DNA from: Acidobacteria bacterium 13_1_20CM_3_53_8
GTDB taxonomy: Bacteria > Acidobacteriota > Blastocatellia > Pyrinomonadales > Pyrinomonadaceae
Assembly (NCBI GenBank): GCA_001920415.1
Contig: MNJR01000017.1
Coordinates: 1 to 64,000, forward strand
Length of the DNA stretch: 64,000 bases
Direction: 5' to 3'
The notes below the pieces were generated by a model that worked only from the letters and a program-made list of their open reading frames with translations, did not search any database and was not told the DNA's origin. Numbering within the stretch: position 1 is the first letter of the stretch; every line of letters begins with the position of its first letter. Position numbers and translations under genes: made by a program. This document shows positions 17,219 to 39,781 of the stretch, piece by piece.

Positions 17219-17237
17219 GTGTAGGACGGAAATCAGA

Positions 17238-18335: not shown

Positions 18336-18360
18336 GTGTCGTTTCCTTCCGCATACAAGT

Positions 18361-21280: not shown

Positions 21281-21370
21281 CAAAAACTTTCCTATTGTTG
21301 TCAGAGCGTCCTAAAGGCATAATCCGCGTTGGCAATGACTAAGGCTGGGGCACATCTAGAATGATGTGCA

Positions 21371-21445: not shown

Positions 21446-21489
21446 ATCAAGCGGAAATATACGACCCATCAGGAGGGAGGTAACTTCTG

Positions 21490-21780: not shown

Positions 21781-21890
21781 AAACCGCGCGCCGACTACGC
21801 GGCGAATATGAAGTTGAATAATATGTCCATCAAGAAATGCTTTGTTAGTCGTGTAGGTATTACAAATGATGAAATTTCGGGAGAAGTATT

Positions 21891-23015: not shown

Positions 23016-23095
23016 ATTCTCATCTCTGTTGATTTAATTTCAAGAATCAAGCGCGATCATTTCAACTATCCAGACGCCGTGTTAAATAAATTATT

Positions 23096-23722
23096 ATGCT
23101 GCGTCAGTCAGTCAATGAATCCTCGTGGGCTATATCTACAACACGATTCAACTCCATCAACGAGTTTGAATATTTTGGGAACAAGCTCCCAGACAATGCG
23201 GGGTTGAAAGCTATTGATAGGACAGAGCTGATTTCTTTCTCTATCAAGAGATTATCTGATCTTATCGCTGCCAATCCACAGGTGATGCGTAACCTCGCTA
23301 AGATGTTAGTTACAAAGATAAATATATGTAACTTTCATTTAGAAGTAGTTAGCCAAACACAAAGGGGCAGAAAAATCGCAACACTGCTCTCAGGGTTTAT
23401 AAAAATTTCAGAATGGAAACCTTCATATTATCAGGATATTCAACGCAAAGCTCCGATGTCTCTATCTATCGCGTGGGATATTGAACTCCTTACCAGATTC
23501 TTATCGTGTGACTCTAGGACGATAAGAGATGGGTTAAGAGATTTACTAGAAGAAAACCTTATTGAAATAGAATGGCTTGATGACAGGCTAGCAGCAATTC
23601 AGAATGTAACTATGAATGACATAATAGACCTTGGGAAAAAAAGCAGTAAAATTGACGAGAAAACCAATTTCAGATTAACAATAAAGAACCCTAATAAGTT
23701 AGAAGATTATTGTGCTGATTAA
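23096..23722 (+). CDS. CRP/FNR-like regulator, apparently N-terminally truncated
   Basis: 208 residues. The first ~60 residues (NEFEYFGNKLPDNAGLKAID, then ELISFSIKRLSDLIAANPQV) resemble only the end of a cyclic-nucleotide-binding-type beta barrel. The dimerisation helix follows (NLAKMLVTKINICNFHLEVV), then a winged-helix domain (~140-178, LLTRFLSCDSRTIRDGLRDL). The front half of the effector domain is missing, and the ATG at 23096 has no ribosome site. The gene is thus either a 5-prime-truncated relic or a minimal variant. A tyrosine-recombinase fragment lies 37 bp downstream, so local rearrangement is likely. Confidence 0.55.
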   Translation: MLRQSVNESSWAISTTRFNSINEFEYFGNKLPDNAGLKAIDRTELISFSIKRLSDLIAANPQVMRNLAKMLVTKINICNFHLEVVSQTQRGRKIATLLSGFIKISEWKPSYYQDIQRKAPMSLSIAWDIELLTRFLSCDSRTIRDGLRDLLEENLIEIEWLDDRLAAIQNVTMNDIIDLGKKSSKIDEKTNFRLTIKNPNKLEDYCAD

Positions 23723-23758
23723 AAATATTAATGACGTTTATTCAATTATACCTGCAAG

Positions 23759-23902
23759 ACTCATCTACTTGAGACCGACTACGATCTTCGCTTTGTACAG
23801 AACTGGTTAGGTCATTCCAATACCATAATCTATATATATTTGGTTTCAGCCTCGCGCGCCGAGAAAGCGCACAAGCATTTTTCAAAGCCAGCAAAATTTT
23901 AA
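23759..23902 (+). pseudogene. Tyrosine recombinase C-terminal remnant
   Basis: This short frame reads THLLETDYDLRFVQNWLGHS then NTIIYIYLVSASRAEKAHKH and stops at 23902. It carries the HLLExxxDLRxVQxxLGH block of tyrosine recombinases and a candidate Tyr. The TT before the Tyr is replaced, and everything upstream, including the first catalytic Arg, is gone. It has no start codon of its own. Confidence 0.7.
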
Positions 23903-23927
23903 GCCGTGGATAGGTGAAATAAGAGGA

Positions 23928-25154
23928 ATGAAAAAGGAGCGGTGGACTGAAGATGAGGTATTAAGTCTCCCCTTGGGAGAGCTGGATTACTTTGATAGGA
24001 AAAGCGGAGTGATCCTACAAGACTCGAACTTTTTGAACAAGCTGGCAAAACACCTTTCCGCTTTTGCCAACTCTGGTGGCGGCCATTTATTGCTAGGCGT
24101 TAAGGATGACGGAGCGATAGATGGAGTGCCTAAAATTTACAAAGGCAGAACTAGCACTAGAGAGTGGTTAGAGCAGATCATACCGGAATTACTTAGTTAT
24201 CCGCTGCAAGACTTTCGTGTCCATGAGGCTGAGCCTGCATCACCTTCAACAATTCCAAGCGGTAGCATGGTAATAGTGATTGACGTAGGCGATAGTATGC
24301 TCGCGCCTCACCAAGATACTTTTTCCAAGATTTATTATCACCGATCAGGCGGCCATTCTGTTCCCACTACCCATGTATACTTAGAATCCCTCAGGGGGCG
24401 TGAAAAGTATCCGAGCAAGGAGATTGTTTGCGCGTGGCGTGATTATGTAATTAATCCCCTACTCTCAACAGCTACAAGTGAGCAAAACTACTTAAAGCAA
24501 AAGAAGTGGACATGGGATAGGTGGAAGAGTGATCGTACAGGACTAAAAGAACTACATTACATCAGCGACCGCTCCACATATTCAGGTAATCAGAAGCAGT
24601 TCCTTGAATCTCATCCAGAGATACAAGAGGTTATGGACGAGCACGATAAGGCGGTTCAAGAAGTGCAAACTCGCTGTAAGCGGCTTTTTAGAGAAATTAA
24701 GCGTGGCAGTCACCTGCTAGATATTTATAAAAAAACAACTATCCTAAAGTCACTTCAGAGTTTTAACCCTGAAAACTCTTACGACTTAAGAAATTGCAAA
24801 ACTAGGAAAGACTTTTTAGAGTTTTCGTTCGGTAGTAATAAACGTGAAGCTCACCTTGCCGCCTTAGCTGAATACATTATGAATCAATCAGGGCCTTTTC
24901 ATATTGCTAACAACCACGCAGCACTTATCTGGAACCCGAATAGAGAAAAGTATCTTGAAATATTAGACTATCCACCGCTTAGTAACTACTGGGCAGCCGC
25001 GGAAGCAGCTAGAGAAGATTTGTTACGTCAACTTGAGCGTTTGATTGGTCTGTTAGAGAAAACGCGAGCAGAGCTTACCCAAAAACATGGTGTGCCCGTT
25101 GAGGTTCACAAAGAACCTACAGTGATTTTCAAAGACCCCCGCCTTCCTTTCTAG
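23928..25154 (+). CDS. Schlafen/AlbA_2-domain protein
   Basis: 408 residues. The N-terminal ~150 residues carry an AlbA_2 (Slfn-like) domain: GELDYFDRKSG at ~17-27 with the conserved acidic/Lys residues, AKHLSAFANSGGGHLLLGVK then DDGAIDGV, and YYHRSGGHSVPTTH. The middle region is helical. A coiled-coil-like C-terminus follows (AREDLLRQLERLIGLLEKTR). AlbA_2 proteins bind nucleic acid and some cleave RNA; several lie in phage-defence loci. Adjacent TIR and recombinase debris make a defence role a reasonable but unproven inference. The start sits after an aagagga. Confidence 0.8.
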   Translation: MKKERWTEDEVLSLPLGELDYFDRKSGVILQDSNFLNKLAKHLSAFANSGGGHLLLGVKDDGAIDGVPKIYKGRTSTREWLEQIIPELLSYPLQDFRVHEAEPASPSTIPSGSMVIVIDVGDSMLAPHQDTFSKIYYHRSGGHSVPTTHVYLESLRGREKYPSKEIVCAWRDYVINPLLSTATSEQNYLKQKKWTWDRWKSDRTGLKELHYISDRSTYSGNQKQFLESHPEIQEVMDEHDKAVQEVQTRCKRLFREIKRGSHLLDIYKKTTILKSLQSFNPENSYDLRNCKTRKDFLEFSFGSNKREAHLAALAEYIMNQSGPFHIANNHAALIWNPNREKYLEILDYPPLSNYWAAAEAAREDLLRQLERLIGLLEKTRAELTQKHGVPVEVHKEPTVIFKDPRLPF

Positions 25155-25307
25155 GCCCTTCTAAGGTTCTACCATGCGATAGCACGGTAGCTTAGGCAAA
25201 GAGATCATACTTTTTGACTGGGTTGACTTTTGGATAGTCTGCTGAAGTTTAGACACTCAAAGCTGATATTTACAGAATTCCTACTTCATCAGACCTTTTG
25301 AATTTCA

Positions 25308-26300
25308 CTATCTAACAAGGAGTTTGCGTTCTAACCATTCTTTAAAGCTTGATGGTAAGTCCGTTACTCTTACAGATTCTCTTTGAATTGTCAGTCTGTA
25401 AAAACTATCGAAATTAATATCCGTTATTGGATCGGCATTTTTCCATAGATCATCAAAATGACCTTGGTATTGTTCGTATGGGCATTCAGGATTCAGTTTC
25501 TTATCCACGATGAAAAACGGACTTGCCCCGCCTGTTCTTATGTTAAGTATAGGCGTTACCATAGCCCTATAGCTATCTATAATCATTGATAGTGATGGAA
25601 TCGTATCATATAGACGTACGTCGAACCGCGCTGGCCCCACCTTTTCAGTTCTCAGTTTCTCACACAGGTCATGCAAAAATTGATATACAGACCAAACCGA
25701 CCGCAAGAATTCGGGCTGGCTCTTATAACATTTAGCTTCAGAGCGCCGTTGTGCCATGAGCGACCATGGATTGATAATTAATATTTTTACGGAAAACTCA
25801 CGCTCAGTTTTCAGACGCTCAGTGACAAAATAAATATTCGGAGGGGAGAGGATGTCGTTGGCATTAAAGCCAATTATTTTAAGATAACCAGGGGCATTTT
25901 GAGCAATAGAGCTAAAGTCCAAGGAAGTACGGTTAACTTGAAATTCAACCAAGCCAGCAGCAGAAAACGAGCTTTCTACTGTTAGATTAGGCGGTAGAAC
26001 GCTGGTAACTTTTGTAGTCATAAAGTCCACTACATCAAGTCTCATGAACAACTCAAAGAGAAGAGAAACCGTAGAAGTTGTTAAAAGTGTGGCACCTAAA
26101 GCTAAGAAAATACCCTTGAATGGTGAAGGCGGCGAAGTAGGAGTATAGGGAAAGATAAGAGCGTCTATTAGAATTAATACAATTCCGATTAAAGCTACTA
26201 CAATTATGAGATAGAAGGTCTTAAAGGTAACGACCTTCTTAAGGTCTTCTAATGAAGGGAGCCTTCTTTTAGTAGGAGTGAGGTTGTTTGATTCGGCCAT
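25308..26300 (-). CDS. Two-TM membrane protein with PLD-like/DUF5919-type soluble domain
   Basis: 330 residues. After a basic N-terminus come two membrane segments, ~31-50 (YLIIVVALIGIVLILIDAL) and ~63-86 (GIFLALGATLLTTSTVSLLF). The cytosolic part includes LKIIGFNANDILSPPN, FSVKILIINPWS, DVRLYDTIPSLSMIIDSYRA, TPILNIRTGGASPFFIVD and a closing YEQYQGHFDDLWKNAD. The ordering matches proteins whose C-terminus resembles a phospholipase D fold without clear HKD motifs. A membrane-bound sensor or effector in stress or defence is possible. A monocistronic minus-strand gene, convergent with the AlbA_2 gene, with an aaggac site. Confidence 0.65.
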   Translation of the reverse strand: MAESNNLTPTKRRLPSLEDLKKVVTFKTFYLIIVVALIGIVLILIDALIFPYTPTSPPSPFKGIFLALGATLLTTSTVSLLFELFMRLDVVDFMTTKVTSVLPPNLTVESSFSAAGLVEFQVNRTSLDFSSIAQNAPGYLKIIGFNANDILSPPNIYFVTERLKTEREFSVKILIINPWSLMAQRRSEAKCYKSQPEFLRSVWSVYQFLHDLCEKLRTEKVGPARFDVRLYDTIPSLSMIIDSYRAMVTPILNIRTGGASPFFIVDKKLNPECPYEQYQGHFDDLWKNADPITDINFDSFYRLTIQRESVRVTDLPSSFKEWLERKLLVR

Positions 26301-26406
26301 TGAGTTTTGTAAGTCCTTTCAGCATCAGATCATCATACCTTTGGTAGTTACACTAAACCTTACAAAACGCCTTGGGAAAATAACACAATACTTCTTGAAT
26401 ATTCCT

Positions 26407-26592
26407 TTATTCAATTCTATCAGGCAACCTCTTCCTGAATTGAGTAGCTAGCGATTTATATTCTTCTTCAGACAAATGCTTTTTGGGGTGAGGCCATGGT
26501 GCTTTACCTTCTAAATAGCCGCCAGCTAATCGAGGAATTATATGCCACATAAGATTCCTGAATGGCTTGCTACTGGCACAATATGGACGCAA
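26407..26592 (-). pseudogene. Possible HIT-family fragment
   Basis: The frame contains LMWHIIPRLAGG followed by APWPHPKKHLSEEEYKSLAT, which resembles the C-terminal end of HIT-family dinucleotide hydrolases (HWHLIPRY then a closing helix). The upstream half with the remaining histidines is not present in any frame nearby. It is probably a decayed fragment rather than a working enzyme. Confidence 0.35.
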
Positions 26593-26759
26593 TAAATTCC
26601 TGAATTGGCTTACCCATTGAGCGTGACTTGTACTTTACGCCTGCGCCAATTTCTGAGGTCTTACGGCGCGAAGAACACGAGCAGGGTTAGGCCCCCTGCT
26701 CACCCTTTTGACGGTTTCAGCCTATTTGTTAAGCTGATAAATCATTAATTTTCATATCT

Positions 26760-26975
26760 ATGAAAAAACCTAAAACTAATAGGAAGTGGTATCCCTATGA
26801 AGAACATGGTTCATACTATAAGCTAGAAGATGGTGCGCTTATGAGTTGCGCTATGTTAATTGACGGCTCACGCGAAGATGACGAAGGTGGTGAGGTAGAT
26901 TTTTACCGTGGTGTTGAACCAGAAGAGCTACCAATGTTTCGAGCTATTATTAAAGAATTAGAATCGAAACCATAA
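26760..26975 (+). CDS. Small acidic hypothetical protein
   Basis: 71 residues: basic start (KKPKTNRKWYPYEEHGSYY), then acidic (GSREDDEGGEVDFYRGV). There is no ribosome-binding site; the ATG follows ttcatatct. A terminator at 27090-27110 follows the gene, which supports transcription. The function is unknown. It shares the lack of Shine-Dalgarno with the two next plus-strand genes. Confidence 0.5.
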   Translation: MKKPKTNRKWYPYEEHGSYYKLEDGALMSCAMLIDGSREDDEGGEVDFYRGVEPEELPMFRAIIKELESKP

Positions 26976-27089
26976 GCTTATCTTCTGAGCCTCATTAAAG
27001 AACACTTTACCAAAGCTTTCGGCAACTCATACAGAATCTTCTTAGCACACTAGCAAGCCATACAGAGTATAGAAAAGCATCAAAGCAAG

Positions 27090-27110
27090 AGAGCAGGTTA
27101 CTCCTGCTCT
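27090..27110 (+). terminator. Intrinsic terminator
   Basis: Eight-base perfect arms agagcagg/cctgctct with a five-base loop, directly followed by ttttgttt. It ends the small gene at 26760-26975. Confidence 0.8.
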
Positions 27111-27208
27111 TTTTGTTTGCTTGACTAATTCCCCCCGCTTGCTACGCTTATATCACTTATCACTGGGAGCATAATTTCTTGCTCCTCTAATCAATAACTC
27201 TCATAACT

Positions 27209-27649
27209 ATGTCTACCGAACAAAGAGGAATCCCTAGCTCTTCCGAGCATGAAAGTAAGCAGCGAGAACAAGAGGCGACTCGTGAACTCAATAGTAAATA
27301 TCCTCTTTATCCAGGCGATATTGCCGAGCGCAGCTACGCTCCCTATCCTCCGAATCCTAATAGTAAATTTCCCGAAAATGAAAAACGAGCCGAGAGTATC
27401 CGACCCATTTTAAGGCAACTAGATCGGCTTATACCGTCCATTGCCGAATACCTTGACAGTTCTCATCGTGAGACTGTTCTTAACCTAGCGCTTGCTATGA
27501 GGGAACTATTAGGACAGGAGCATCACAATCTGGAAAACGCTGATAGACTTCCAAAAGATTTTGTCGGCTACGAGCTTCGCGGAGCACTCTCTACCGCGCA
27601 TGATTCCCTTAACCATACTATTTCTGAGCTTGATATTGACAAGCCTTAA
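27209..27649 (+). CDS. Hypothetical helical protein
   Basis: 146 residues. The N-terminus is charged and low in structure (SSSEHESKQREQEATRELNS), then Pro/Tyr-rich (APYPPNPNSKFP). The C-terminal ~80 residues are helical (SIRPILRQLDRLIPSIAEYL, LNLALAMRELLGQEHHNL). No Shine-Dalgarno lies before the ATG. A hairpin at 27781-27807 could terminate it. No family is recognised. Confidence 0.5.
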   Translation: MSTEQRGIPSSSEHESKQREQEATRELNSKYPLYPGDIAERSYAPYPPNPNSKFPENEKRAESIRPILRQLDRLIPSIAEYLDSSHRETVLNLALAMRELLGQEHHNLENADRLPKDFVGYELRGALSTAHDSLNHTISELDIDKP

Positions 27650-27998
27650 CTAAGCTCAGCTTGAGTCTGTATCAGCAAAGCATACTTGAGGATGGGCTAC
27701 AAACTCTCTTATATCGACGGTACTATACTCTCATACGCGCAGAGCTTTAGGTAAAGATATTAATTGCCTATTAGCACTAGGAAAGACCGCTATATAGTGG
27801 GTCTTTCTTAACTAAGAACCTAAGAATCCCAATGAAGTGTCAATGCTGGTAAATTCTCCAGCTAACGATATTTCTGAGTAATCTAAACCTGTAATTTTAT
27901 AACGTTACAGCCCATTGACGAATTTTGAGGTTAAGCTATTCTTTATATAAGTCCGCCAATTTATTGGCTAAATATTTCTACAATTAACTATCAATAAT
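27650..27998. other. Noncoding interval with one terminator-like hairpin
   Basis: Arms gaaagacc at 27781-27788 and ggtctttc at 27800-27807 are perfect, followed by ttaactaag. The rest is AT-rich and holds no supported gene. The gene at 27999 starts without a ribosome-binding site. Confidence 0.5.
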
Positions 27999-28265
27999 AT
28001 GGGAGAAAAATCGCCCCAAGAACAAAATCAAGGAGAACCGTTCGAGTTCAAACCGATAGACAATATAGAAAGAGATTTGGGAGTTATGCTAGCCAAGTCA
28101 ATAAAGGCCGGAGACATTCCTATCGAGGAGCTTGGTAAGGATGAGGATGGGAATTATATATTCTATGGAAGTGCTTGGCTTGAGCAACGCCCAGAGATTA
28201 AGAAGAAAATAGATGAGATAATTAACGCAGTGCTTAGGGAAGCCGAAGCCAAGAATGATATGTAG
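27999..28265 (+). CDS. Small acidic hypothetical protein
   Basis: 88 residues, strongly acidic and soluble, with a low-complexity start (GEKSPQEQNQGEPFEFKP) and a helical end (IKKKIDEIINAVLREAEAK). No ribosome-binding site precedes the ATG. It ends at the bidirectional terminator shared with the recombinase gene. Small acidic proteins beside recombinases can be directionality factors or DNA mimics. I have no sequence evidence for either. Confidence 0.5.
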   Translation: MGEKSPQEQNQGEPFEFKPIDNIERDLGVMLAKSIKAGDIPIEELGKDEDGNYIFYGSAWLEQRPEIKKKIDEIINAVLREAEAKNDM

Positions 28266-28270
28266 TAAAT

Positions 28271-28297
28271 AAAAACAACCCATGCTGGGTTGTTTTT
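28271..28297. terminator. Bidirectional intrinsic terminator
   Basis: Arms aaaaacaaccca (28271-28282) and tgggttgttttt (28286-28297) are a perfect 12-base pair with a three-base loop, giving a T-run on both strands. It separates the convergent genes ending at 28265 and 28296. Confidence 0.9.
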
Positions 28298-30293
28298 ATT
28301 TAGCCCTCGGCCCTATCTTGATTCTTGAGAGATTGAGCCTCTTTAGCGCCCTTCCTATATGAGATATGTTTACTTTAACGCCAATTTCTTGTTCTACTCG
28401 GTCGGATAATTCCTTTAGAGTAGAGTCAACGAGTTCTTCTTTGAGTCGCCGGATGAGGGCCAGCCCTTGTTCACTCAGGATAGAAAATGGTGGCTCTGGT
28501 AAAGATTTAGTAAGTTCAAAGCTCGCATAGTCAAGGTAGTCTTCTCCCCTAGACACGAGTTGTTTTGATGGGTATATAAGTACCGAATTGTGACCATCAT
28601 GATACATTGTTGTGGTCGCAATCCCACCTGACCCGTCCGAATTGTGACCATCATGATAGTTTGTTGTGGTCGCAAATCCGCCAGATGATTCTAATATTTG
28701 CTCCCCTGTATTAAGAAATAAGGAGTTCGAGCTATCTATTCCATCCTTAGATAAGGGAATGATTCCCTTGATTCTAACCTGCTGTCCTTCATATATGATC
28801 TTATTGACTATTAACCGTAGGAAACGTTGACGCTCTTCAAAAGTAAAATGCTTTAGACGCTGTGCTGCTCTCTTACAGTAATCAAGAATAGTGGCCTTCA
28901 CATTTGAAGATTTTAGTGATTGTGTATTTTCGTTAAGATGCGCTTTCCTATTTTCCAAAGCACTTTTTCTTGCATTAATTTTCTGCAACTCCTGTCCTAG
29001 TTGGGCAGGAGAAAGGATACTTAACCTATAGGCTTCTAAGATACGCGACTCCTCTTTCTTAAGCTTGTTGAGAAGTTTTTCTACTTCGATATACTCGCTC
29101 TGCCACTGATGCCCGTTTTCTTCTTCTCGTTCCTTATGCTTAGCAACCTGTTCAACAATAATAGTGGGATTCAATACTGCCTTTTCTACAGCAGACCAGA
29201 CTGCCTCATCTAGAGTATGCTCAATGATTGATGGAAACATTTTGCAACGCTTGCTGCACCGATAACAGAACTTACCTTTGCCTGGGTCACCAACGTAAGC
29301 AGCACTACATCCTCCGCAGCTAATGAGACCTCGCAAGAGATAGAGATGTCGGGTGTTACGCAAAGAAAATACTATGTTGCTATCAATTTGGCGTTGCACC
29401 TTCAACCATTGCTCTCGCTCAATGATTCTTAATTCAAGTGGTAAGACAACAGGAATCCACTCTTCACGGGCGCGCAAACGAGTGCTGCTTTTGAGCGAAT
29501 GTTTGTACTTTTTTATAAGTACGGGCTTTGTAGGTTCACAACTGTATAGTTTGTTGTAGTACCATACGCCTGCATAAATTTCGCTTCGTAAAATCCTCGT
29601 AACTGAAGATTTCGCCCATGGGTTACCTTTCCGTGCAAGCGCCTTTGCCTCGTTCAACCGTTTCATTACTTTATGGATTGAAAGCCCTTCCTCACTCACC
29701 CACGAATACATCTGCCGCACTACAGCAGCTTCCGCCGGGACAATTTCTAAATAACCGTCCTTACGTGCAACCCGATCTTTTAATACATAATGGTAGCCAT
29801 AAGCTGGTCGGGTTCCAATGAACTGCTGTCGCACTTCTACTTTGTGTCGCCTGCCTCGGCGCATGCGATCAGAGATCATCTCCCGTTCAAATTCTGCGAA
29901 GCTCCCCAAGATATTAACCATCAGGTTATAGGTAGGACTTTTTTCTGCGGGTAATTTTCGGAAGATGACTTGAATTCCGTTGCGCTCAAGGTCGCGTTTG
30001 ATTATTCCGAGGTGTGTAACATCACGAGCTAGCCGATCCACGTCGTTGAGAAGCACAATGTCGAATTTTCGCTTTGAGGCATCATCTCTAAGGCGATCTA
30101 GCTCTGGCCTAGCAAGAAGGCTTCCACTCCATCCTTCATCCTTATAAGTAGTAACAAGCGTCCACTGCTTCTCTCTCGCATACCGTTCGAGTTCTGCTAT
30201 TTGAGAATCAATGGTCTGTCCTTCGCGCTGTTCTTCCGACGAAACGCGGGCATAGATAGCTACCCGCAAACCATCGGATACATTATCCGGCAT
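28296..30293 (-). CDS. Large serine recombinase (second in island)
   Basis: 665 residues. The resolvase domain starts RVAIYARVSSEEQREGQTID with the nucleophile Ser in YARVSS (~18-19), followed by LLNDVDRLARDV and EFEREMISDRM. The recombinase domain runs to ~300, then a zinc ribbon (CGGCSAAYVG, CYRCSKRCKMF at ~330-350) and a long coiled coil (~375-450). The C-terminus holds an 18-residue tandem repeat, ATTTxYHDGHNS, encoded by a 54 bp DNA duplication. It is the last gene of a six-gene minus-strand operon and is 159 residues longer than the recombinase at 37207. It presumably integrates or excises its own element. No ribosome site is seen. Confidence 0.93.
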   Translation of the reverse strand: MPDNVSDGLRVAIYARVSSEEQREGQTIDSQIAELERYAREKQWTLVTTYKDEGWSGSLLARPELDRLRDDASKRKFDIVLLNDVDRLARDVTHLGIIKRDLERNGIQVIFRKLPAEKSPTYNLMVNILGSFAEFEREMISDRMRRGRRHKVEVRQQFIGTRPAYGYHYVLKDRVARKDGYLEIVPAEAAVVRQMYSWVSEEGLSIHKVMKRLNEAKALARKGNPWAKSSVTRILRSEIYAGVWYYNKLYSCEPTKPVLIKKYKHSLKSSTRLRAREEWIPVVLPLELRIIEREQWLKVQRQIDSNIVFSLRNTRHLYLLRGLISCGGCSAAYVGDPGKGKFCYRCSKRCKMFPSIIEHTLDEAVWSAVEKAVLNPTIIVEQVAKHKEREEENGHQWQSEYIEVEKLLNKLKKEESRILEAYRLSILSPAQLGQELQKINARKSALENRKAHLNENTQSLKSSNVKATILDYCKRAAQRLKHFTFEERQRFLRLIVNKIIYEGQQVRIKGIIPLSKDGIDSSNSLFLNTGEQILESSGGFATTTNYHDGHNSDGSGGIATTTMYHDGHNSVLIYPSKQLVSRGEDYLDYASFELTKSLPEPPFSILSEQGLALIRRLKEELVDSTLKELSDRVEQEIGVKVNISHIGRALKRLNLSRIKIGPRAK
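28583..28686. repeat. Two tandem 54 bp repeats inside the recombinase gene
   Basis: Copies start at 28583 and 28637. Each contains a 34 bp imperfect palindrome with arms ttgtgacca/tggtcgcaa (28588-28621 and 28642-28675). They stay in frame and encode the repeated ATTTxYHDGHNS peptide. Confidence 0.85.
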
Positions 30294-30370
30294 ATATAAG
30301 CTTTTTTTGTTAATTGAAAGGGGGGTCGAGGGTGAGCTTCTCAGTGGGATTTTAGGCAGGGAAATAAGCT

Positions 30371-30541
30371 CTATATTTGATCATTGCCCGTTGCTGGCTC
30401 ACTGTCAAGAGCCTTATCGTCAGCATCAGATGAAGACGGAGGCTCACGTAAAAGCATATCGAATGCGGATGCAAGACGTTCTAGGGCATCGGGTACAGGG
30501 TCGTGCTCCCAAATGGTTGTGGGTCTTATCCAGTTCTTCAT
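30371..30541 (-). CDS. Small conserved-looking protein between RuvC-like nuclease and recombinase
   Basis: 56 residues, reading MKNWIRPTTIWEHDPVPDAL then ERLASAFDMLLREPPSSSDA and ending ATGNDQI. The composition (WIRPTTIWEHDPVPDALERL) is protein-like, unlike a random frame, and the gene fits between the RuvC-like gene (41 bp upstream) and the recombinase (77 bp downstream). There is no strong ribosome site. It may be a recombination directionality factor or a coupling peptide; that is inference from size and position. The overlapping plus-strand frame at 30307-30567 lacks such features. Confidence 0.55.
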   Translation of the reverse strand: MKNWIRPTTIWEHDPVPDALERLASAFDMLLREPPSSSDADDKALDSEPATGNDQI

Positions 30542-30581
30542 TTGTAAGCAATAATCTCATTAATTAATAGCTCTACTCTGC

Positions 30582-31085
30582 CTATTCGGATGAATCTATA
30601 GACCCATAACAACAAGTAAGCCCGACCGCAATAGCGTCAAACAGTTTGCCGTAATACAACACTTCCCATTTGCTTTGGCCTTTAAGGTAGCGCGTTAGCT
30701 CAACGTACTGCGATGCAATCCTTTCGGCCAGTTGTCGCTTCGTTGCCTTGTCTGTACCGCAAATAAATTGACGGACAATTTTAGGAGCAAACTCGTAAAC
30801 GGTCACTCCCTCTTGCTGTGAAGTCTTTTTGATTTCACGGATTACTTGGGCCAGAGACACAGCGCTTTGCTGGATGATTAGTGGCTGCTTGATGGCTAAA
30901 ATATCTGGCTGATGTTCTCTAATCAGTTCCCTGATAGTATGGACAACACCACCGCAGCCCTCCTGAAACGTCCTTCTAGTTCTAATTATTTTAACTGCGT
31001 AGTAGGTAAGCTCTCCGGCGACTAACACTGCTACTCCAATATTTCGTGTACCGGGATCAATGGACAGTATTGTGGTTTCTTTCAT
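30582..31085 (-). CDS. RuvC-like Holliday-junction resolvase
   Basis: 167 residues from the ATG at 31085; the frame is open to 31184 but that would overlap the upstream gene more. The start ILSIDPGTRNIGVAVL is the first acidic-residue strand of the RuvC/RNase H fold. DILAIKQPLI gives the second strand, without the usual Glu, and KLFDAIAVGLTCC near the end gives the final Asp. The Lys-rich segment KATKRQLAERIASQYVEL is also typical. Family role: cutting four-way junctions during recombination or replication. In this operon it probably processes the mobile element's DNA. The Glu-to-Lys/Gln change in AIKQPL is a departure that could affect catalysis. Confidence 0.75.
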   Translation of the reverse strand: MKETTILSIDPGTRNIGVAVLVAGELTYYAVKIIRTRRTFQEGCGGVVHTIRELIREHQPDILAIKQPLIIQQSAVSLAQVIREIKKTSQQEGVTVYEFAPKIVRQFICGTDKATKRQLAERIASQYVELTRYLKGQSKWEVLYYGKLFDAIAVGLTCCYGSIDSSE

Positions 31086-31314
31086 GTGCGTACTTTTTAA
31101 GTAAGTAAAAGAAAAGCGCTTGACGTGACTTCCTAATTTGTTCGGTAGGCATGGCTTTAGCCTCCGCATAAGCTCGATAAACAATAAAGTGTGGGTATTT
31201 CTTGCAGCACTGGAGATAGCGAGTGACGTGTTCTAAATCCTTGAACTCCTGAGCGATTGTCTGTGCCAAGAGTTCCCGCTTAGAGGATTTGGCGATTTGA
31301 TTATTAGTTTGCAC
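31057..31314 (-). CDS. Small helical protein of the inner element operon
   Basis: 85 residues from a GTG at 31314. All helical and charged: SSKRELLAQTIAQEFKDLEH, then IVYRAYAEAKAMPTEQIRKS and ALFFYLLKKYAHE. It overlaps the start of the RuvC-like gene by 29 bp, which suggests coupled translation. I do not recognise the family. The pattern resembles helical accessory proteins located next to replication or recombination genes in integrative elements. Confidence 0.6.
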   Translation of the reverse strand: MQTNNQIAKSSKRELLAQTIAQEFKDLEHVTRYLQCCKKYPHFIVYRAYAEAKAMPTEQIRKSRQALFFYLLKKYAHERNHNTVH

Positions 31315-31460
31315 AATGTTTTTAACTTTCTCTTTAATCTCTTTTTTTACTAACTCCGAAAAGCGCCATTCATGGTTTAGATGAGCGGATTACTAGCTTA
31401 ATAGCACTACTCCTAATGACCGCATCTTGCCCCTCTGAGTGGTGAGTCTATGACACGCTA

Positions 31461-31799
31461 CTATCTCTTTTGTGACACTCTAGGAAGCGTAGCTATGCTT
31501 CTCCACTTTTGTATGTGGATAATTAGGGAGCGGCCTGTGTAGTCCACCTCAACGTATTTATATTGGCGCAGTATGAGTAGCCATCTGCGAATCGTCCTGG
31601 CAGCTATCCCCATATCGCCAGCAATGGTTTGGTACTTTCTGATAAGCGTTCCCGATTTTCTATCAGCATGGATGATGAGATACAGAAAGAGCCAGATGGC
31701 GCTTTTCACCCTTCGGTAATGGTGCGCTTCCCTGTCAACCACCAAACCACGCCACACTGGCCCCCACCACGTTTGTGCCTTAAATTGTCTGTGAGTCAT
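31461..31799 (-). CDS. Winged-helix, replication-initiator-like protein
   Basis: 112 residues. The core KSAIWLFLYLIIHADRKSG, YQTIAGDMGIAARTIRRWLL and YKYVEVDYTGRSLIIHI is a winged-helix DNA-binding fold of the kind found in small Rep-like and primosomal proteins. The ATG overlaps the stop of the XRE gene as ATGA, so the two are translationally coupled. Either a replication starter for the excised circle or a regulator would fit. The sequence alone does not decide. Confidence 0.65.
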   Translation of the reverse strand: MTHRQFKAQTWWGPVWRGLVVDREAHHYRRVKSAIWLFLYLIIHADRKSGTLIRKYQTIAGDMGIAARTIRRWLLILRQYKYVEVDYTGRSLIIHIQKWRSIATLPRVSQKR

Positions 31800-32230
31800 A
31801 GTTTTTTAGTAAAAAACTCAGTTAATTTGTTAGATAGCTGGATAATATGTTTACGTACTCGGTCAAGGTCAGTCGGCGTTGGAGAAAGCTTGCGCAGCAG
31901 TTCCGCATACGGGCAGTATGCTTCAAAGCCGCTTTGTTCGGCTTGGTCAAAGATACGCTTTAGGCTCGGACTCGAAGCGATTTTCTGCCGTATATCATCT
32001 TCAAGCTGCTTATAGAGGTCTGGTAATAGCACTCGGATCGGTATGCCAAAGATGATCTCCAGACACAACGCGGTTTCAAGGTTCGGAATTCTTAAACCCT
32101 TCTCGTACCGAGAGACTTGATCTACCGTCTGGTGATTGAGCAATGCGGCAATTTGTTTTTGTTGAAGCCCACTACGCTTTCGCGCGAACCAGAGTCGGTT
32201 ATGGGTTTTGGTTTTCCCTCCACCTGTCAT
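31796..32230 (-). CDS. XRE-family regulator leading the inner element operon
   Basis: 144 residues. The HTH at ~12-66 reads WFARKRSGLQQKQIAALLNH then QVSRYEKGLRIPNLETALCL and FGIPIRVLLPDL. The C-terminal ~70 residues are helical (LEDDIRQKIASSPSLKRIF, DLDRVRKHIIQLSNKL) and may dimerise. The first gene of the minus-strand operon that ends in the 665-residue recombinase, and probably its repressor. No Shine-Dalgarno precedes the ATG. The 260 bp upstream hold the promoter region and nothing else recognisable. Confidence 0.8.
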   Translation of the reverse strand: MTGGGKTKTHNRLWFARKRSGLQQKQIAALLNHQTVDQVSRYEKGLRIPNLETALCLEIIFGIPIRVLLPDLYKQLEDDIRQKIASSPSLKRIFDQAEQSGFEAYCPYAELLRKLSPTPTDLDRVRKHIIQLSNKLTEFFTKKL

Positions 32231-32490
32231 TTTGTTTCGAGTGATTAATGATTGTATTTCTACAGTAGCAAGACAATCGAAAGGATTAAAGTAGGAATAA
32301 TTAGCCGAAAAAGGCTACCGTAGTGAGGTTTTGTAAAGAAAGGATAAAAATATGTTGTGGATAAATAATGCTGTTCCCCGTTTTGTTAGGCAGACTGTCT
32401 TTAAGATCATTTTTACAAAAGCAGCCAATGAGTGCTGTACAGAATTTCAAACCCTTCATAACTAACGAACCCTAAGATGCGTATTTCCTT

Positions 32491-33162
32491 TTATTCTGCA
32501 AGTAAGCTGGGGTCTATTCTTCTGATTACCTCTTCTAAATGATGAGCATACCGGGACGAATCTTTATCAAGCCCCGGTATCGGGTGGGTTTTGCGGTAAT
32601 TAATGTAAGGTTTGTAGGACAGGTAACAACGACGAAATGTATGCTTTAAAAAATTACGGATAAGTTTCTCAGGCACATGTTCAGTGTTTATAAGGTAGGC
32701 AATATCATTAAGGCTGTTCAATACTAAATCCACTTCGTGTAAGTTGAATTTTTCTTTGCTTGCGCTTCGTACTTTATTATCAATAATCGGCCATCCTTCT
32801 TCGAGCGGCACATCAGGTAGGTCATTAAATATTATGGGATGATTGTGATAAACAAACCAACGCACTTTACGTAAACCGGGATCTTCAATATACCTAAAGA
32901 CAGTCAAAATAGACTCAAGTTCGTTTGCTTTCGTCATTGTTCTAAGTTGATTACCATAGATGTATACAGTGAGAGCAATACCAAAAACGCCAGCGGCGGT
33001 AGCTAGACTCCCAAAAATTATGCTGTACTTCTCTAATGAGTCTAAATCAGCTTTTAGTTGAAACGCGTAAATGATGGCGGCGGCGGCGCTAATTAGCGCC
33101 GCGACACCAACTGCTACGTGCAGGAATATTTTGCTACCTTTCAGTAACTGGCTTGCATCCAT
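32491..33162 (-). CDS. Two-TM membrane protein with DUF4760-like cytosolic part
   Basis: 223 residues; ggag lies before the ATG. Hydrophobic segments at ~13-33 (FLHVAVGVAALISAAAAII) and ~47-68 (IIFGSLATAAGVFGIALTVY) form a hairpin. The cytosolic part starts NQLRTMTKANELESILTVFR and continues VDLVLNSLNDIAYLINTEHV, then ends with a helical RRIDPSLL. This topology and the FRYIEDPGLRKVRWFVY region resemble DUF4760-type proteins, whose function is unknown. It follows the small membrane gene at 33245 on the same strand, beyond a terminator. Confidence 0.6.
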   Translation of the reverse strand: MDASQLLKGSKIFLHVAVGVAALISAAAAIIYAFQLKADLDSLEKYSIIFGSLATAAGVFGIALTVYIYGNQLRTMTKANELESILTVFRYIEDPGLRKVRWFVYHNHPIIFNDLPDVPLEEGWPIIDNKVRSASKEKFNLHEVDLVLNSLNDIAYLINTEHVPEKLIRNFLKHTFRRCYLSYKPYINYRKTHPIPGLDKDSSRYAHHLEEVIRRIDPSLLAE

Positions 33163-33182
33163 AACAACGCTCCAAAAGAAAA

Positions 33183-33218
33183 TCGCTGACGAGTCTAGTT
33201 CAATAGACTCGTCAGCGA
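33183..33218 (-). terminator. Intrinsic terminator
   Basis: Perfect 15-base arms (33183-33197 and 33204-33218) with a six-base loop. On the minus strand the hairpin is followed by ttttctttt. It ends the small membrane gene at 33245-33439 and lies just before the start of the 33162 gene. Confidence 0.85.
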
Positions 33219-33244
33219 CAAGGCGTGATTATTCCTGCAATTCG

Positions 33245-33439
33245 CTAGTTAGCTATAAGGTTGAGCATTGCCAGAACCCACAATGCAAATCCAACCAACC
33301 CACAGGCGAGCGAAAGGGCAATAACGACGGGAGATTGAAGGAACACTACTCCTATTGCTGTCCCAAAGATGCTAATGCCCATCAGTCCTGCTCCGAGAAC
33401 AGCGAACAATTTCTCTATTCCTTTTGATAACGGAAACAT
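33245..33439 (-). CDS. Small two-TM membrane protein
   Basis: 64 residues, nearly all hydrophobic: segments ~11-33 and ~37-60 (VLGAGLMGISIFGTAIGVVF, VVIALSLACGLVGFALWVLA). An ideal aaggaggt site lies seven bases before the ATG, and a strong terminator follows, so it is very likely expressed. No family assignment. Short hydrophobic proteins of this kind may be holin-like, toxin-like or structural partners of the adjacent membrane protein. Confidence 0.65.
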   Translation of the reverse strand: MFPLSKGIEKLFAVLGAGLMGISIFGTAIGVVFLQSPVVIALSLACGLVGFALWVLAMLNLIAN

Positions 33440-33698
33440 AAACTACCTCCTTCTGCTACTCGTGAACAACAAGAAAGTCTCCGCATAGAGCACGGTACTT
33501 TGCTTTGACCTTCCCGCTATACGCGAATATGTGAATGGAGGCTTATTGAGGTAGGGCCATTATAGTTACCGATGACCACGTAGCGTAGCAAACCTACGCA
33601 TTCTGTCAAGATTGGTTATAAATCTTTGCATGAAGAAATGAGAGGCATATACTTGCTGCCCGTATGTATGCACCAGCCTTCAGGAGTACATATTCTTA

Positions 33699-36600
33699 AT
33701 GTCACTTTTTTACTCACTAACTTACTGGTTTAGAGCGCGGAATTTCCCACTGATTCCCCATAGTCCAAATGACCCAAGCTTGTACCCTGCGATTTATCAG
33801 CAGGTGCTCATTCCAGCACAAGAAGTAGTTAAACGGCTTGGGAACGAGGTGCTGAAATTACCGAATCTAGGGATAGCTCCACCTAAACAAGAAATCGGAT
33901 TACATATTGATCCGCTCCCGCATGTTCGCAAGCCAGACCGCCTCGTAGCGATATGCTTTTACCTGCCAAAGTTTTCTTTTCCCCCTCATATACTTTTACA
34001 ACTGCGTAATCCAAAACAAAACACCGGAAATCGGCAGCCTTCAAATCCACCTATTTTCTATTATCTTTCTCAACCCGACGCAGAAGCGGAGCTTGCAACG
34101 AAAGGATTAGCATACGTTGTCTCTACCTATGGTGGGATTTGGCTTAACCGTGACCCATATGAATTCTTTAGAAACGTCAATAACAGAAACTCTTTTACCG
34201 CTTACGGACCAATTCTGAAAAAAGACCCCGATAAGGTAAAGATGTACGATAAGTGGCCGGATGAGCCGCCACCGCTACAAACTACCGAAGGTTATTCTAT
34301 TGATCTGCTCAATGAGATGCAGCGTAGGCTTACCTTTTGTTCTAGGCTGACCTCGGGCGTACTGCCCGCACGGGCGCTGGCAGAGGTATTAAGCGCGAAG
34401 ACTTATCCCGTATCCGACGACCTGATCAATCACCTCGCGCTTCCAGACGAAACATTTGCTGATAACCCGGTCACAATCAAAATCCTTCCCGATAACAGTG
34501 CGCAACGAGGGGTTTCAAAGCAGTTTTTAGATAGCTTAAGAAGTGTGAAAAAACCGTTAGCCTTTGAGGTGGTAGCTGAAGGAGAAACCATCTACTTTCA
34601 ACTGTCTTTCGCTCCAGAAGACAGGGAACTTGTTGAGCGACAGCTTCAACTTTACTTTGAGGACTATGTGACAATTGAGCGTCCCGGATTCTTTGCTTCT
34701 AAGAAGCCTCTCCATGTTTTAGTAAGTTTACCTAGCCAAGTTTCCAACACCTCAAAGACACTTCGGGATTTTGCTGTTGACCCGTATAACCAACTCTTTA
34801 GCATTCTCTCTGGAATTACCTCAGCCGATACTGCCTGCGCCCAAATTTTGTTCGTTCCTCTTTCTAACGGGGCGGTCAATCAGGTTGCCCTTTACTTGGA
34901 AAACCACCTACCATTCGATAGTGAAGAAGCGGCAAATAAGCGTGTACGCGATCTGGAAAGAAAGCTTCCTTCTTGGTTTACAGCGGTGCGCTTGTTTAGC
35001 TCCAAGCCCGAATTACTAACGAAACTACACACCAGCTTTATTGGTCAGTACGAAACTCCTGAACAGACGTGGACTGTTGCCGAAGAATCAACGGTTCCAC
35101 AACTTGATCGGAACTTTACGGAGTGGACAATTCTTTCTACGGAAGAATTAGCCGCACTGGTTCACTTTCCGGGATCCGACATCAACTGTGACCGCTTGGA
35201 GACCGCAAGCATGAAATCAAAACTTCCTCCCGCGTTATTCACAACTGGCGAAGTGACGCTTGGCATAAGCGAGGTTCGCGGCGAGACAAAGCTCGTTACC
35301 CTTCCCGACCAAGTTCGGGATAAGCACCTCTATATTGTCGGGAAAACGGGAATGGGCAAATCCACTCTGCTCTTTAACCTCGCACTGCAAGATATTCAGC
35401 GAGGTGCTGGCATTGCGGTAATTGACCCTCACGGTGATTTAGTCGAAGAGTTACTTACCCATATCCCAAGCGAGCGCATTAACGATGCCATCTATTTTGA
35501 TGCCGCAGACCGGGAGCACCCAATCGCACTTAATATTATGAACGCCGACGGCGACGAAGAAATTGGTCGCCTTGCTGATGATTTACTGACCACGTTCAAA
35601 CGCCTGTCAAAAGATACCGGGGACAAGATGGAGTATGTCCTTACGATGACGTTTTACACGCTTCTGAGTATTCCGGGCAGCACCTTCTTGGATATTGAAT
35701 CAATGCTCTCTGACAGTGAGTTTCGAGAGAGGGTGATTGCCAAGTTGCAATCACCGCGACTGGTGCGGTTCTGGCAACAGCAATTCCACGGACTCCGGGA
35801 CGCCGTGCAACCAATCCTGACGCGCATGAGTAAGTTCTCCATGTCTCCGACTATAAGCGGGCTGCTATCCCAATCAGGAAGCGCGCTTGATTTCTATGAT
35901 GTCATTCAGGAGAAGAAAATACTGTTAGTCAATCTAGCTTCAGGCAAGATAGGTGAGCATAGCAGTATGCTTCTAGGTTCATTATTGGTCTCGCAACTGC
36001 AACTAGCGGTAATGCGGCGGGCGTACCTTGCCAAAGGTGCGCGCCATCCCTATTACCTCTACGTCGATGAGTTCCAGAATTTCACCAGCACCGCCTTTGA
36101 AAAGATTCTTTCCGAAGCTCGTAAATATCAGTTATGCCTGACACTCGCCCATCAGTTTGTTTCGCAGCTTGATGAGTCGCAACGGAAAGCAATTTTCGGC
36201 AATGTCGGGACAGCCATCATGTTCTCGCTTGGGGCCGAAGATGCTAATGCCTTGAAATACCAGATCGGAAATTACGAACCTACTGACCTGATTAACTTGC
36301 CTGAATTTGAAGCCCTATGCCGACCGGCAACCTCAGTTGCGGACACCTTCAATTTTATAACCCTCCCTCCGCCAGCACAGGCGCAGGGATTTGCCGATGA
36401 CATCATCAAGCAGACCCGCGAGAGATACGCTGCGGCCTCAGGACATCCTCATGATGCTTTAGCTTCGCAAACCAATCCCGTGCAGGTAGCTACTCCCTCA
36501 TCCGTGGAATATGCATCCTCATCAGCAGTCGATGTACCGATAAGGAAAACGAGACTACGCCCAGAGAAATCAGTTGCTAAAGAAAGCCCATCGCTAGGTC

Positions 36601-37115
36601 GCGGAGGCCAACAGCACAAGTACCTACAAGACCTAATAAAGCGAATAGCTGAATCGAAAGGATACCGAGCAATCATCGAGCAGCAGGTTCTTGGCGGTGC
36701 AGGCAGCGTAGACGTATCCCTAGAGAAAGACGAGGTGAAAATAGCTTGCGAAATATCAGTCACTTCAACTGCTGAACAGGAGGTTAAGAACGTTCAGAAG
36801 TGTCTCGCATCAGGGTATGACAAAGTGATCCTCCTTGCCCCAGATCAAAAGGCGCTTACCAAATTAAGGAAGGTAGTTGAAGGCCAGATAGAGTCGGAAA
36901 GCATGGATAATGTTATGTTCTTCCATCCCAAAGATTTTGTGGACTTCTTAGAGAAGGAAGAGGCCGAAGGATCAAACAAAGAAGAAACCGTTCGGGGCTA
37001 CAAGGTGAGAGTGAAATATACAACTCTAACTGATACTGATAAGCAAGCGCGCAAGAAAGCGATCTCGCAAGTCATTATGCAAGCGTTGCGACGTATGAAG
37101 AAGCAGGAAGAGTGA
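33699..37115 (+). CDS. Large HerA/TraG-like ATPase with C-terminal nuclease-like domain
   Basis: 1138 residues with a caggag site. Residues ~1-520 are an N-terminal domain with mixed strands and no recognised motif. The ATPase begins with HLYIVGKTGMGKSTLLFN (Walker A ~546-554) and AVIDPHGDLVEEL. Walker B is YYLYVDEFQNF (~785-795), followed by LTLAHQFVSQL. This motor core matches the 391-residue paralogue at 18546. After a linker, residues ~976-1080 look like a PD-(D/E)XK fold: GAGSVDVSL, then KIACEISVT and YDKVILLAPDQ. The usual Lys of ExK is Ser here. A DNA pump fused to a nuclease fits conjugative transfer or DNA-targeting defence. No relaxase is nearby. Confidence 0.85.
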   Translation: MSLFYSLTYWFRARNFPLIPHSPNDPSLYPAIYQQVLIPAQEVVKRLGNEVLKLPNLGIAPPKQEIGLHIDPLPHVRKPDRLVAICFYLPKFSFPPHILLQLRNPKQNTGNRQPSNPPIFYYLSQPDAEAELATKGLAYVVSTYGGIWLNRDPYEFFRNVNNRNSFTAYGPILKKDPDKVKMYDKWPDEPPPLQTTEGYSIDLLNEMQRRLTFCSRLTSGVLPARALAEVLSAKTYPVSDDLINHLALPDETFADNPVTIKILPDNSAQRGVSKQFLDSLRSVKKPLAFEVVAEGETIYFQLSFAPEDRELVERQLQLYFEDYVTIERPGFFASKKPLHVLVSLPSQVSNTSKTLRDFAVDPYNQLFSILSGITSADTACAQILFVPLSNGAVNQVALYLENHLPFDSEEAANKRVRDLERKLPSWFTAVRLFSSKPELLTKLHTSFIGQYETPEQTWTVAEESTVPQLDRNFTEWTILSTEELAALVHFPGSDINCDRLETASMKSKLPPALFTTGEVTLGISEVRGETKLVTLPDQVRDKHLYIVGKTGMGKSTLLFNLALQDIQRGAGIAVIDPHGDLVEELLTHIPSERINDAIYFDAADREHPIALNIMNADGDEEIGRLADDLLTTFKRLSKDTGDKMEYVLTMTFYTLLSIPGSTFLDIESMLSDSEFRERVIAKLQSPRLVRFWQQQFHGLRDAVQPILTRMSKFSMSPTISGLLSQSGSALDFYDVIQEKKILLVNLASGKIGEHSSMLLGSLLVSQLQLAVMRRAYLAKGARHPYYLYVDEFQNFTSTAFEKILSEARKYQLCLTLAHQFVSQLDESQRKAIFGNVGTAIMFSLGAEDANALKYQIGNYEPTDLINLPEFEALCRPATSVADTFNFITLPPPAQAQGFADDIIKQTRERYAAASGHPHDALASQTNPVQVATPSSVEYASSSAVDVPIRKTRLRPEKSVAKESPSLGRGGQQHKYLQDLIKRIAESKGYRAIIEQQVLGGAGSVDVSLEKDEVKIACEISVTSTAEQEVKNVQKCLASGYDKVILLAPDQKALTKLRKVVEGQIESESMDNVMFFHPKDFVDFLEKEEAEGSNKEETVRGYKVRVKYTTLTDTDKQARKKAISQVIMQALRRMKKQEE

Positions 37116-37206
37116 ACCGCAACTATGTCGCCCTGCATCATAGTATCGGCGGACATCAGGAACTCATAGGGACAGCATCTCATAACTCAAGGATGGAGGA
37201 AGTGAC

Positions 37207-38727
37207 ATGTCGGTCAAGAAGTTTGTAGCCCCAGAAGGAAAGCGCGTCGGCATCTGGATTCGTGTCTCCACGGAAGATCAGGCAACAGGAGATAGCCCCG
37301 AGCACCATGAGCAGCGCGCCCGTTATTATGCTGAAGTGAAGAGTTGGCAGGTTGTTGAAGTCTATCACCTTGAAGCCGTGAGCGGTAAGGCAGTCATTGA
37401 ACTTCCTGAAGCGCGGCGAATGCTCACCGACATTAAGTCAGGTCACATCACTGGCCTTATCTTTTCCAAGCTCGCGCGGCTTGCGAGGAATACTAGAGAG
37501 CTTTTGGACTTTGCAGACATCTTCCGACAATACGACGCAGACTTGATCTCTCTTCAAGAATCTATTGACACTTCCACTCCTGCCGGACGCCTGTTCTACA
37601 CCATGATTGCGGCGATGGCGCAGTGGGAGCGCGAAGAGATCGCGGAGCGTGTTGCAGCAAGCGTCCCCATTCGAGCAAAACTCGGAAAGCCCCTGGGAGG
37701 AGCAGCTCCCTTCGGCTATGAATGGAAAGACCGGAAGCTCGTGCCGCACCCCGAGGAAGCGCCGATTAGAAAGCGCATCTATGATCTCTTCCTAGAGCAC
37801 CGAAGGAAGAAGACCGTAGCACGACTCTTGAACGACGCGGGCTATCGGACGCGTACCGGAGCACACTTTTCCGACACGACTGTTGACCGTCTGCTTCGTG
37901 ACCCGATTGCCAAAGGACAGCGGCGCACAAATTATACAAAGAGTCTGGGCGATAAGAGGCGCTGGGTCTTGAAGGACAAAGAGGATTGGGTATGGAGCGA
38001 GGTCGAGCCGATCATCTCCGATGAGATATGGAAGCAGTGCAACTATATCCTCGACCAGCAAAAGCAGAGTCCGCGGCATTCGGCTAAAAAGCCAGTGCAG
38101 CTATTCGCGGGGGTCGCGTACTGTCATTGCGGCTCAAAGATGTACGTTCCGTCGAACACGCCGAAATACGTTTGCTTCACCTGCCGCAACAAACTGCCAA
38201 TCACCGATCTTGAAAGTATCTTTCACGAGCAGCTCAAGGGATTCTTTTTCTCAACGGACGACCTTACACATTGTATTCAGGAAACTGACCGTACGATTCA
38301 GGAGAAACGAGAATTGCTCCAAACACTCGAAGGCAAGCACCGGAAGCTCAAAGGCGATATGGACAGAGTGATGCGGCTCTACCTTGACGGCAACATCAGC
38401 GGCGAGGGGTTCCGTCTCCAGTACCAGCCGCTCGAAGAGCAGGTCAAACAGCTTGAAGACCAAATACCGCAGATTCAAGGTGAGGTGGATTTCTTGACCA
38501 TTCAATACCTGTCGAGCGATCAAATCCTAACTGACGCCCGGGACATCTATTCGAGGTGGCAAGAGCTTGAACAGAACGAGAAGCGGCAGATCATCGAAAA
38601 CACTGTAGAAAAGATAGTTATCGGCAAAGACGATGTTACGATTGAACTCGGTTACCTTCCTCCTTCCCTCGAATTAGTGGCAAATGAGCAACGCAACTTC
38701 AAGGATTCATCGCGGCGGCGAGCATAA
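37207..38727 (+). CDS. Large serine recombinase at the island edge (probable island integrase)
   Basis: 506 residues. Ser nucleophile in [14 protein letters not shown] (~20); [20 protein letters not shown] and [12 protein letters not shown] complete the catalytic domain. The recombinase domain follows (~155-280). The zinc ribbon is CHCGSKMYV and CFTCRNK, then a coiled coil (~365-440) and a closing strand region [17 protein letters not shown]. The crossover dinucleotide lies in codons 498-499. The last eight residues are comM antisense sequence and cannot be native. Joined to the left end of the island, the frame runs on into the HTH ORF at 3066. It is the natural integrase of the comM insertion. 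Whether the truncated form is active is unknown. Confidence 0.93.
38682..38716. other. Right island attachment junction
   Basis: Island sequence ends gagcaacgcaactt and meets comM at CA 38700-38701 (aaggattcat follows). The arm GCAACGCA is the inverted counterpart of the left arm. The recombinase gene crosses the junction. Confidence 0.75.
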
Positions 38728-39781
38728 ACGATGCCGGAAAGGTGAGCGACATTGAAGCACGGCTTATAGTCACGCGCTGGTCTTCAAGCGGCTGGCGCAA
38801 AACTTCCAGGACGCTTCTATCAAACTCCGGCAACTCGTCTAAAAAGAGAACGCCGTGATGAGCGAGTGAGACTTCGCCGGGACGGGGCACAGCGCCTCCG
38901 CCTATCAAACCCGCGTCGCTGATTGTGTGATGAGGCGAGCGAAAAGGTCTTTCGGTGACAAGCCCCGTGCGCCCTGTCAACCCTGCGACCGAATGAATCT
39001 TTGTTAATTCAAGCGCGGCCTCGAATTCCAGTGGAGGCAAGATGGTCGGCAATCGTTTCGCAAGCATGGTCTTGCCCGATCCGGGCGGGCCTATAAGAAG
39101 AATGTTATGACTGCCTGCGCTCGCAACTTCGAGCGCGCGTTTCGCTGTCAACTGCCCGCGCACTTCACGAAAATCAACAGCGTGGTGATCGTCGTGCTTG
39201 AGCAGTTCGGACGGATCAACCGTGATAGGCGCGGGCGCAATCTGCGAACGCAAAGCCGCAATCAAATCAACCGCGCCGCGCAAATCCGCGACCCCATAAA
39301 CGCTCACGCCCGCGACGACCGCAGCCTCTTTCGCGTTCTCTTCAGGAAGCAGCAGAAATTTTATGCCAGAGTTTCGGGCAAGTATTGCTATCGAAAGTGC
39401 TCCGCGAATCGCTCGCACGCGACCGTCCAGCGATAACTCTCCGACCGATAGCATGTCCGTCAAATTTTCCGCTTCGCTCAAATCGCCGTTCGCGCCCAGG
39501 ATGCCGAGCGCGATTGGCAGATCGAAACTAGCGCCCTCTTTCCTGATGTCTGCGGGCGCTAAATTTATAGTGGTCTTGTGAAACGGGAAGAAGAAGGCGC
39601 AGTTGGTTATCGCCGCTCGTATTCGCTCGCGCGATTCGCGCACGGCCAGATCGGGCAGGCCGACGATTGTTACTGACGATGGCGAGTCGGATTCTCCGCG
39701 CGCCGGTGTCAGGTCAACTTCAATGTCAACCAGGTCTGCGTCAATGCCGTAAACGGCTGCCGACTGTGTTCTAAACAGCAT
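38700..39781 (-). pseudogene. comM: comM (YifB-family Mg-chelatase-like AAA ATPase), N-terminal fragment
   Basis: About 360 codons from the ATG at 39781 end at a stop created by the insertion just after FMLAAAMNP. The N-terminal ChlI domain ([20 protein letters not shown] with near matches, [17 protein letters not shown]) and the Walker A ([18 protein letters not shown]) plus Walker B region ([11 protein letters not shown]) remain. The missing C-terminal third is at 2572-3057. Known role of ComM: hexameric helicase for branch migration in natural transformation. The gene is interrupted here. comM is also a known island insertion hotspot in other bacteria, such as AbaR islands in Acinetobacter. 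Confidence 0.93.

Follow-up and report, generated by a model that had tools for sequence, protein, structure and literature searches.

The window, a stretch of 64,000 nucleotides of acidobacterial DNA, carries the gene of a DNA motor with a nuclease-fold tail (P0001; 33699..37115, plus strand, an open reading frame of 1138 codons for amino acids), and this gene lies in an integrated element of 35,644 bp that is inserted in comM, directly upstream of a large serine recombinase. The long motor is very probably part of the mobility core of the element, and it probably translocates the element's own DNA. On the fuller reading, that it is a relaxase-free dsDNA pump of the mobility module with its tail as the DNA-recognition part, we regard the case as evenly balanced. 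The split comM, the adjacent serine recombinase and the presence of two motors in one comM-inserted element all go beyond the initial annotation of this DNA.

The element and its insertion in comM

The comM gene is present in the window in two parts, both on the minus strand. The 5' part (YifB, 38699..39781) is interrupted after codon ~360, and the 3' part (Mg_chelatase_C, 2572..3066) contains the sole Mg_chelatase_C domain of the genome (2599-2886), which shares its strand with the comM start and lies 36 kb from it. Both junctions have a TG core. At the right junction (38700..38701) the comM strand reads AATCCT, then TG, then AAGTTGCGTTGC (first letters AAGTTG), and at the left junction (3056..3057) it reads GCAGGGA, then TG, then CCCTTGCGG. 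When the flanks were rejoined at TG we obtained a single open comM frame of 522 codons including the stop, and the 20 residues across the joint read as in the intact comM of relatives. The split gene, the TG cores and the restored frame therefore delimit an element of 35,644 bp (3057..38700) containing both motors. With a large recombinase at one end, an interrupted target and matching short cores, it has the features of a serine-recombinase integrative element. A prophage was rejected, as no capsid or terminase was detected among the element proteins scanned.

The recombinase at the right end of the element (37207..38727, plus strand, 506 aa), directly downstream of the long motor, has Resolvase and Recombinase domains and matches the XisF profile, scoring below the NCBIfam cut-offs for XisF and CcrB. 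Its reading frame runs 27 bp past the TG core (window 38700-38727), so its last codons are host comM DNA. The same motor–recombinase end at the same comM site was found in two further genomes (G045 and G413), together with a common GCGTTGC motif a few bases inward from the core, and tail fragments adjoining comM are retained in another two (G086 and G231). In one genome (G002, L174:8811-11424) this comM position is occupied by a different, prophage-like element whose serine recombinase is unrelated; it appears to be a distinct prophage that uses another recombinase.

Several other genes of the element have counterparts in related elements. The RuvC-like resolvase (30582..31184, minus strand) has an HTH gene and a serine recombinase as neighbours both there and here; in the window this recombinase is the second one of the element (28296..30293, minus strand, 665 aa). 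The HTH_3 regulator (31796..32230, minus strand) is divergent from the long motor here and in related elements alike, and the HTH_36/DnaD-like protein (31461..31799, minus strand) corresponds to the first gene of the short-motor operon in relatives. The element also holds defence-like cargo, a TIR-domain protein and a Schlafen AlbA_2 protein (window 21891-25154). Near its left end an RHS/YD-repeat-like protein of 2083 aa is followed by a 210-aa protein (window 5128-11992), and a 65-aa reading frame inside the element (window 12105-12302) resembles a tyrosine recombinase fragment.

Motor and nuclease-fold tail of the long protein

The initial annotation had called the 1138-residue protein a HerA/TraG-like motor with Walker A near residue 546, and this was borne out. 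Walker A (IVGKTGMGKST, residues 546-556) and Walker B (YLYVDEFQNF, residues 786-795) are both intact, and Pfam matches above cut-off were obtained for TrwB_AAD_bind (residues 533-857, E 1.7e-7), TraG-D_C (785-851) and DUF87 (541-585). An AlphaFold model built with 41 sequences as input was confident for a VirB4-like N-domain (~250-510) and a VirD4/VirB4 motor (~520-910) and very confident for a PD-(D/E)XK-fold tail (~968-1090), and the N-terminus (1-207) was not reliably predicted. Searches with Foldseek and VIA-align matched the motor to TrwB (Z 31), VirB4 (Z 30), DndH (Z 29) and HerA (Z ~24), with FtsK as a weaker fold match (Z 19); from residue 250 onward the protein aligned with full-length VirB4/TrwK. 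The FtsK profile PF01580 was not among the Pfam matches at E 0.1. A hydropathy scan detected no transmembrane stretch in the long motor (maximum 1.43) or in 11 long homologues.

Classical conjugation was rejected for this element, in line with the initial annotation, which had noted the missing relaxase. No relaxase was matched by Pfam among the element proteins scanned, the genome of the window (G000) gave no match to the VirB4 and relaxase profiles PF03135, PF19044, PF03432 and PF08751, and type IV secretion genes were not beside the tail-bearing homologues in the neighbourhoods examined. The element might instead be mobilisable, with the long motor as a coupling protein that hands it to the type IV secretion system of a helper, as in some integrative mobilisable elements. 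TrwB as the closest motor fold would agree with this, as would the relaxases and VirB4-like ATPases (PF19044 matches) present elsewhere in some of ten carrier genomes. Such a role is nevertheless improbable in our judgement, given the relaxase searches above, the absence of the VirB4 profile PF03135 from all ten carriers and a motor that is devoid of a membrane anchor.

The tail (residues 966-1138; 36594..37112, plus strand) was also folded alone. The prediction, made with 5 sequences, gave the order a-b-b-b-a-b (helix, three strands, helix, strand) at a pLDDT of ~90, and the top matches in Foldseek and VIA-align were restriction-endonuclease-fold proteins: EcoT38I, Can2, Bax1, FokI, Hjc, EndoMS and XisH. 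The XisH structures matched at Z ~8, level with dozens of other nuclease folds. In the model the tail is a PD-(D/E)XK core with its acidic pair on two core strands, D1005 in the motif VDVS and E1018 in ACEIS (E1018, I1019, S1020). Since the fold and the structural matches agree, the earlier description of a PD-(D/E)XK-like tail with D and E, and with Ser (S1020) at the place of Lys, was right. Alignment of 11 homologues showed E985, E994, D1005, A1016, E1028, N1031 and K1034 to be invariant and E1018 to be kept in 10 of the 11 tails. The canonical Lys two residues past the second acid is missing from every one of these 11 sequences, which have Ser, Ala or Cys instead. Judging by the alignment, the invariant K1034 on the next helix is a possible relocated Lys replacing the missing one. 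Among the matches listed from phage and plasmid collections, the motor part alone was matched and the tail was not.

A motor joined to a nuclease fold could also serve in defence or exclusion, where the motor would scan DNA and the tail would cut competing phages or elements, much as in HerA–nuclease or MADS systems. The motor is indeed matched by the PADLOC mad8 profile (7.5e-19), which may be a general motor match, the structural relatives include HerA-Sir2, HerA-DUF4297 and DndH, and the TIR and Schlafen-type cargo lies in the same element. Despite the mad8 match, the defence reading is weakened by the core position of the gene and by the loss of the catalytic Lys in all aligned homologues, and we consider it quite improbable. 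No other mad genes were detected among ten window proteins scanned, eight of them non-motor, and NurA had no match in the ORFs scanned. Of the two roles that the initial annotation had offered, transfer agrees with a gene that is constantly present in an integrative element and adjoins its recombinase, and DNA-targeting defence is not supported, because the gene belongs to the conserved mobility core and not to the variable cargo.

Recombinase linkage and motor pairing among relatives

The tail profile matched in 14 of 396 genomes from the window's phylum, and a search of a genome collection added tail-bearing members from Bacteroidota and Verrucomicrobiota. A recombinase was the next gene in 15 of the 18 tail-bearing homologues that had enough downstream sequence, counts that are not phylogenetically independent; it was mostly of the serine type and in one clade of the tyrosine type. 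In two of the other three homologues at most five genes precede the recombinase, and in the third (L032) none is in reach. Four of the 15 direct followers are serine recombinases lacking the catalytic domain (L113:8501-9469, L115:7991-8917, L006:2971-3942 and L156:8999-9979). These consist of a Recombinase domain and HTH_17, with a Zn ribbon in some, and in L115 and L006 their start overlaps the motor end by 8 bp. They may form a split recombinase together with the ~510-aa recombinase of the same element. In the tyrosine-recombinase clade (L118, L129 and L114) the motor carries an excisionase-like HTH_17 as a C-terminal fusion; the motor therefore persists when the recombinase is exchanged. 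The protein of the window is a long-branch member of the family tree, so its exact place is unsure. Genes divergent from the long motor in relatives encode an HTH regulator, a RuvC-like protein and another serine recombinase, and the usual upstream neighbour is a small, often hydrophobic protein, for which tblastn gave no credible match in the window.

The recombinase linkage would also be compatible with a role in recombination or segregation. The motor and its tail could steer excision or integration, or act at the att sites to resolve forms of the element, as an accessory to the recombinase comparable to XisH, which aids XisF. Consistent with this are the immediate linkage (in some relatives the two reading frames overlap), an HTH_17 domain within the motor or the gene that follows it, the match of the window recombinase to the XisF profile and XisH among the fold matches of the tail. 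We still regard it as unlikely: the motor stays when serine and tyrosine recombinases are swapped, and XisH is tied with many other nuclease folds. Nor is such steering known to require an ATP-driven motor.

The pump reading draws in addition on the pairing of the long motor with a short one. The 391-residue paralogue at 18546 that the initial annotation had described as lacking both extensions (P0002; 18546..19721, minus strand) does comprise the motor core only, and aligns with residues 524-894 of the long motor at 38% identity. It is 55-64% identical to the short motors of related elements and ~50% identical to motors of many Patescibacteria. Among 97 relatives the short motor was present in 7/7 with a long motor (Fisher p 2.6e-8) and occurred without the long one in four. 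The two lie on one contig, ~4-18 kb apart, in five genomes (G000, which is that of the window, G016, G037, G038 and G310); the genomes are drafts, and some co-occurrences are on different contigs. In relatives the short motor is accompanied, in varying combinations, by an HTH_36 protein, an N6/N4 methyltransferase, a Zn-ribbon protein, ParB and a DUF932-like protein. The window has a DUF932-like gene with a weak Pfam match (17238..17963, minus strand), of the kind that accompanies the short motor in related elements, and its HTH_36 gene is placed away from the short motor; a methyltransferase and ParB were not seen in the window. The initial annotation had proposed to examine co-occurrence with the small operon at 17.2-19.7 kb; the short motor of that region does co-occur with the long one, and the genes there appear to belong to a maintenance operon of the plasmid type, not to one for defence.

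The ~50%-identical short motors of Patescibacteria (L045, L089 and L111) occupy a chromosomal locus in which an unnamed ~430-aa gene and a sigma70_r4/HARE-HTH gene often precede the motor. The neighbours scanned in Patescibacteria include SecD/SecF, a sigma70_r4/HARE-HTH protein, a tRNA synthetase and phosphoglycerate kinase; type IV secretion genes were not among them.

Proposed role and comparison with known systems

The recombinase linkage, the motor pairing and the negative profile searches in the genome of the window point to a mobility-module gene that does not belong to classical conjugation and probably not to defence. In the mechanism that we propose, the downstream serine recombinase would carry the 35.6-kb element into and out of comM. 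The long motor, probably a hexameric ring, would then bind the excised double-stranded circle of the element via its PD-(D/E)XK-fold tail and pump it with neither a relaxase nor a type IV secretion channel. The tail would be the DNA-recognition part, and possibly a cutter if K1034 replaces the missing Lys. The most likely outcome would be the passing of DNA to another cell, or else some other movement of the excised copy. That the translocation is a transfer of dsDNA between cells is suggested by analogy with the single FtsK-type protein of the actinomycete elements known as AICEs, and we give it a low probability. Similarly doubtful is the wider proposal of an undescribed family of non-actinomycete elements, spread over several phyla, in which one VirD4/VirB4-type pump with a nuclease-fold recognition tail would transfer dsDNA between cells without a relaxase or a type IV secretion system. 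Against the pump reading stand the lack of both a transmembrane stretch and the upstream partner gene, which leaves no evident way for DNA to cross an envelope, and the lack of a tandem recognition repeat array, as we found no convincing candidate near the gene in a search that could miss short dispersed motifs.

The literature searched contained no description of a nuclease-tailed pump beside a serine recombinase, nor of such elements in Acidobacteriota. What had been a lone odd protein now belongs to an element family that is defined by its known ends, by comM as a recurrent target and by a conserved core with two motors, which makes excision, transfer and the part played by the tail directly testable. 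If the pump alone moves dsDNA, conjugation-like transfer free of type IV secretion would extend beyond actinomycetes.

The long motor has the RecA-like motor fold in common with TrwB/VirD4 and VirB4, to which it is closer than to HerA, and its N-domain is likewise of the VirB4/TrwK kind. It differs from these proteins in having no membrane anchor, no adjoining type IV secretion genes or relaxase, an extra PD-(D/E)XK tail and a tie to a recombinase. HerA-NurA, HerA-Sir2, HerA-DUF4297 and DndH similarly combine a translocase with a nuclease-type part and matched structurally at Z 20-29, whereas in the long motor this part is fused C-terminally, lacks the canonical Lys and is encoded by a core gene of the element. 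The window recombinase is a large serine recombinase of the XisF/CcrB type, as in the fdxN XisF/XisH/XisI and SCC CcrB systems, and XisH is an accessory nuclease-fold protein; here, in contrast, motor and nuclease fold form one protein, and the recombinase stays below the family cut-offs. In AICEs one FtsK-type protein moves double-stranded DNA and suffices for transfer (PMC3218068). The AICE TraB systems likewise combine an integrase and one DNA pump with no type IV secretion system, but the motor studied here is VirD4/VirB4-type and not FtsK by Pfam, its tail has a nuclease fold, no clt-like repeats were seen near its gene and its family occurs in other phyla. AbaR islands also interrupt comM, and their curing raises transformation (PMC7508600); by comparison, the insertion in the window should blunt natural transformation, although the element is unrelated to AbaR and carries a serine recombinase and DNA pumps.
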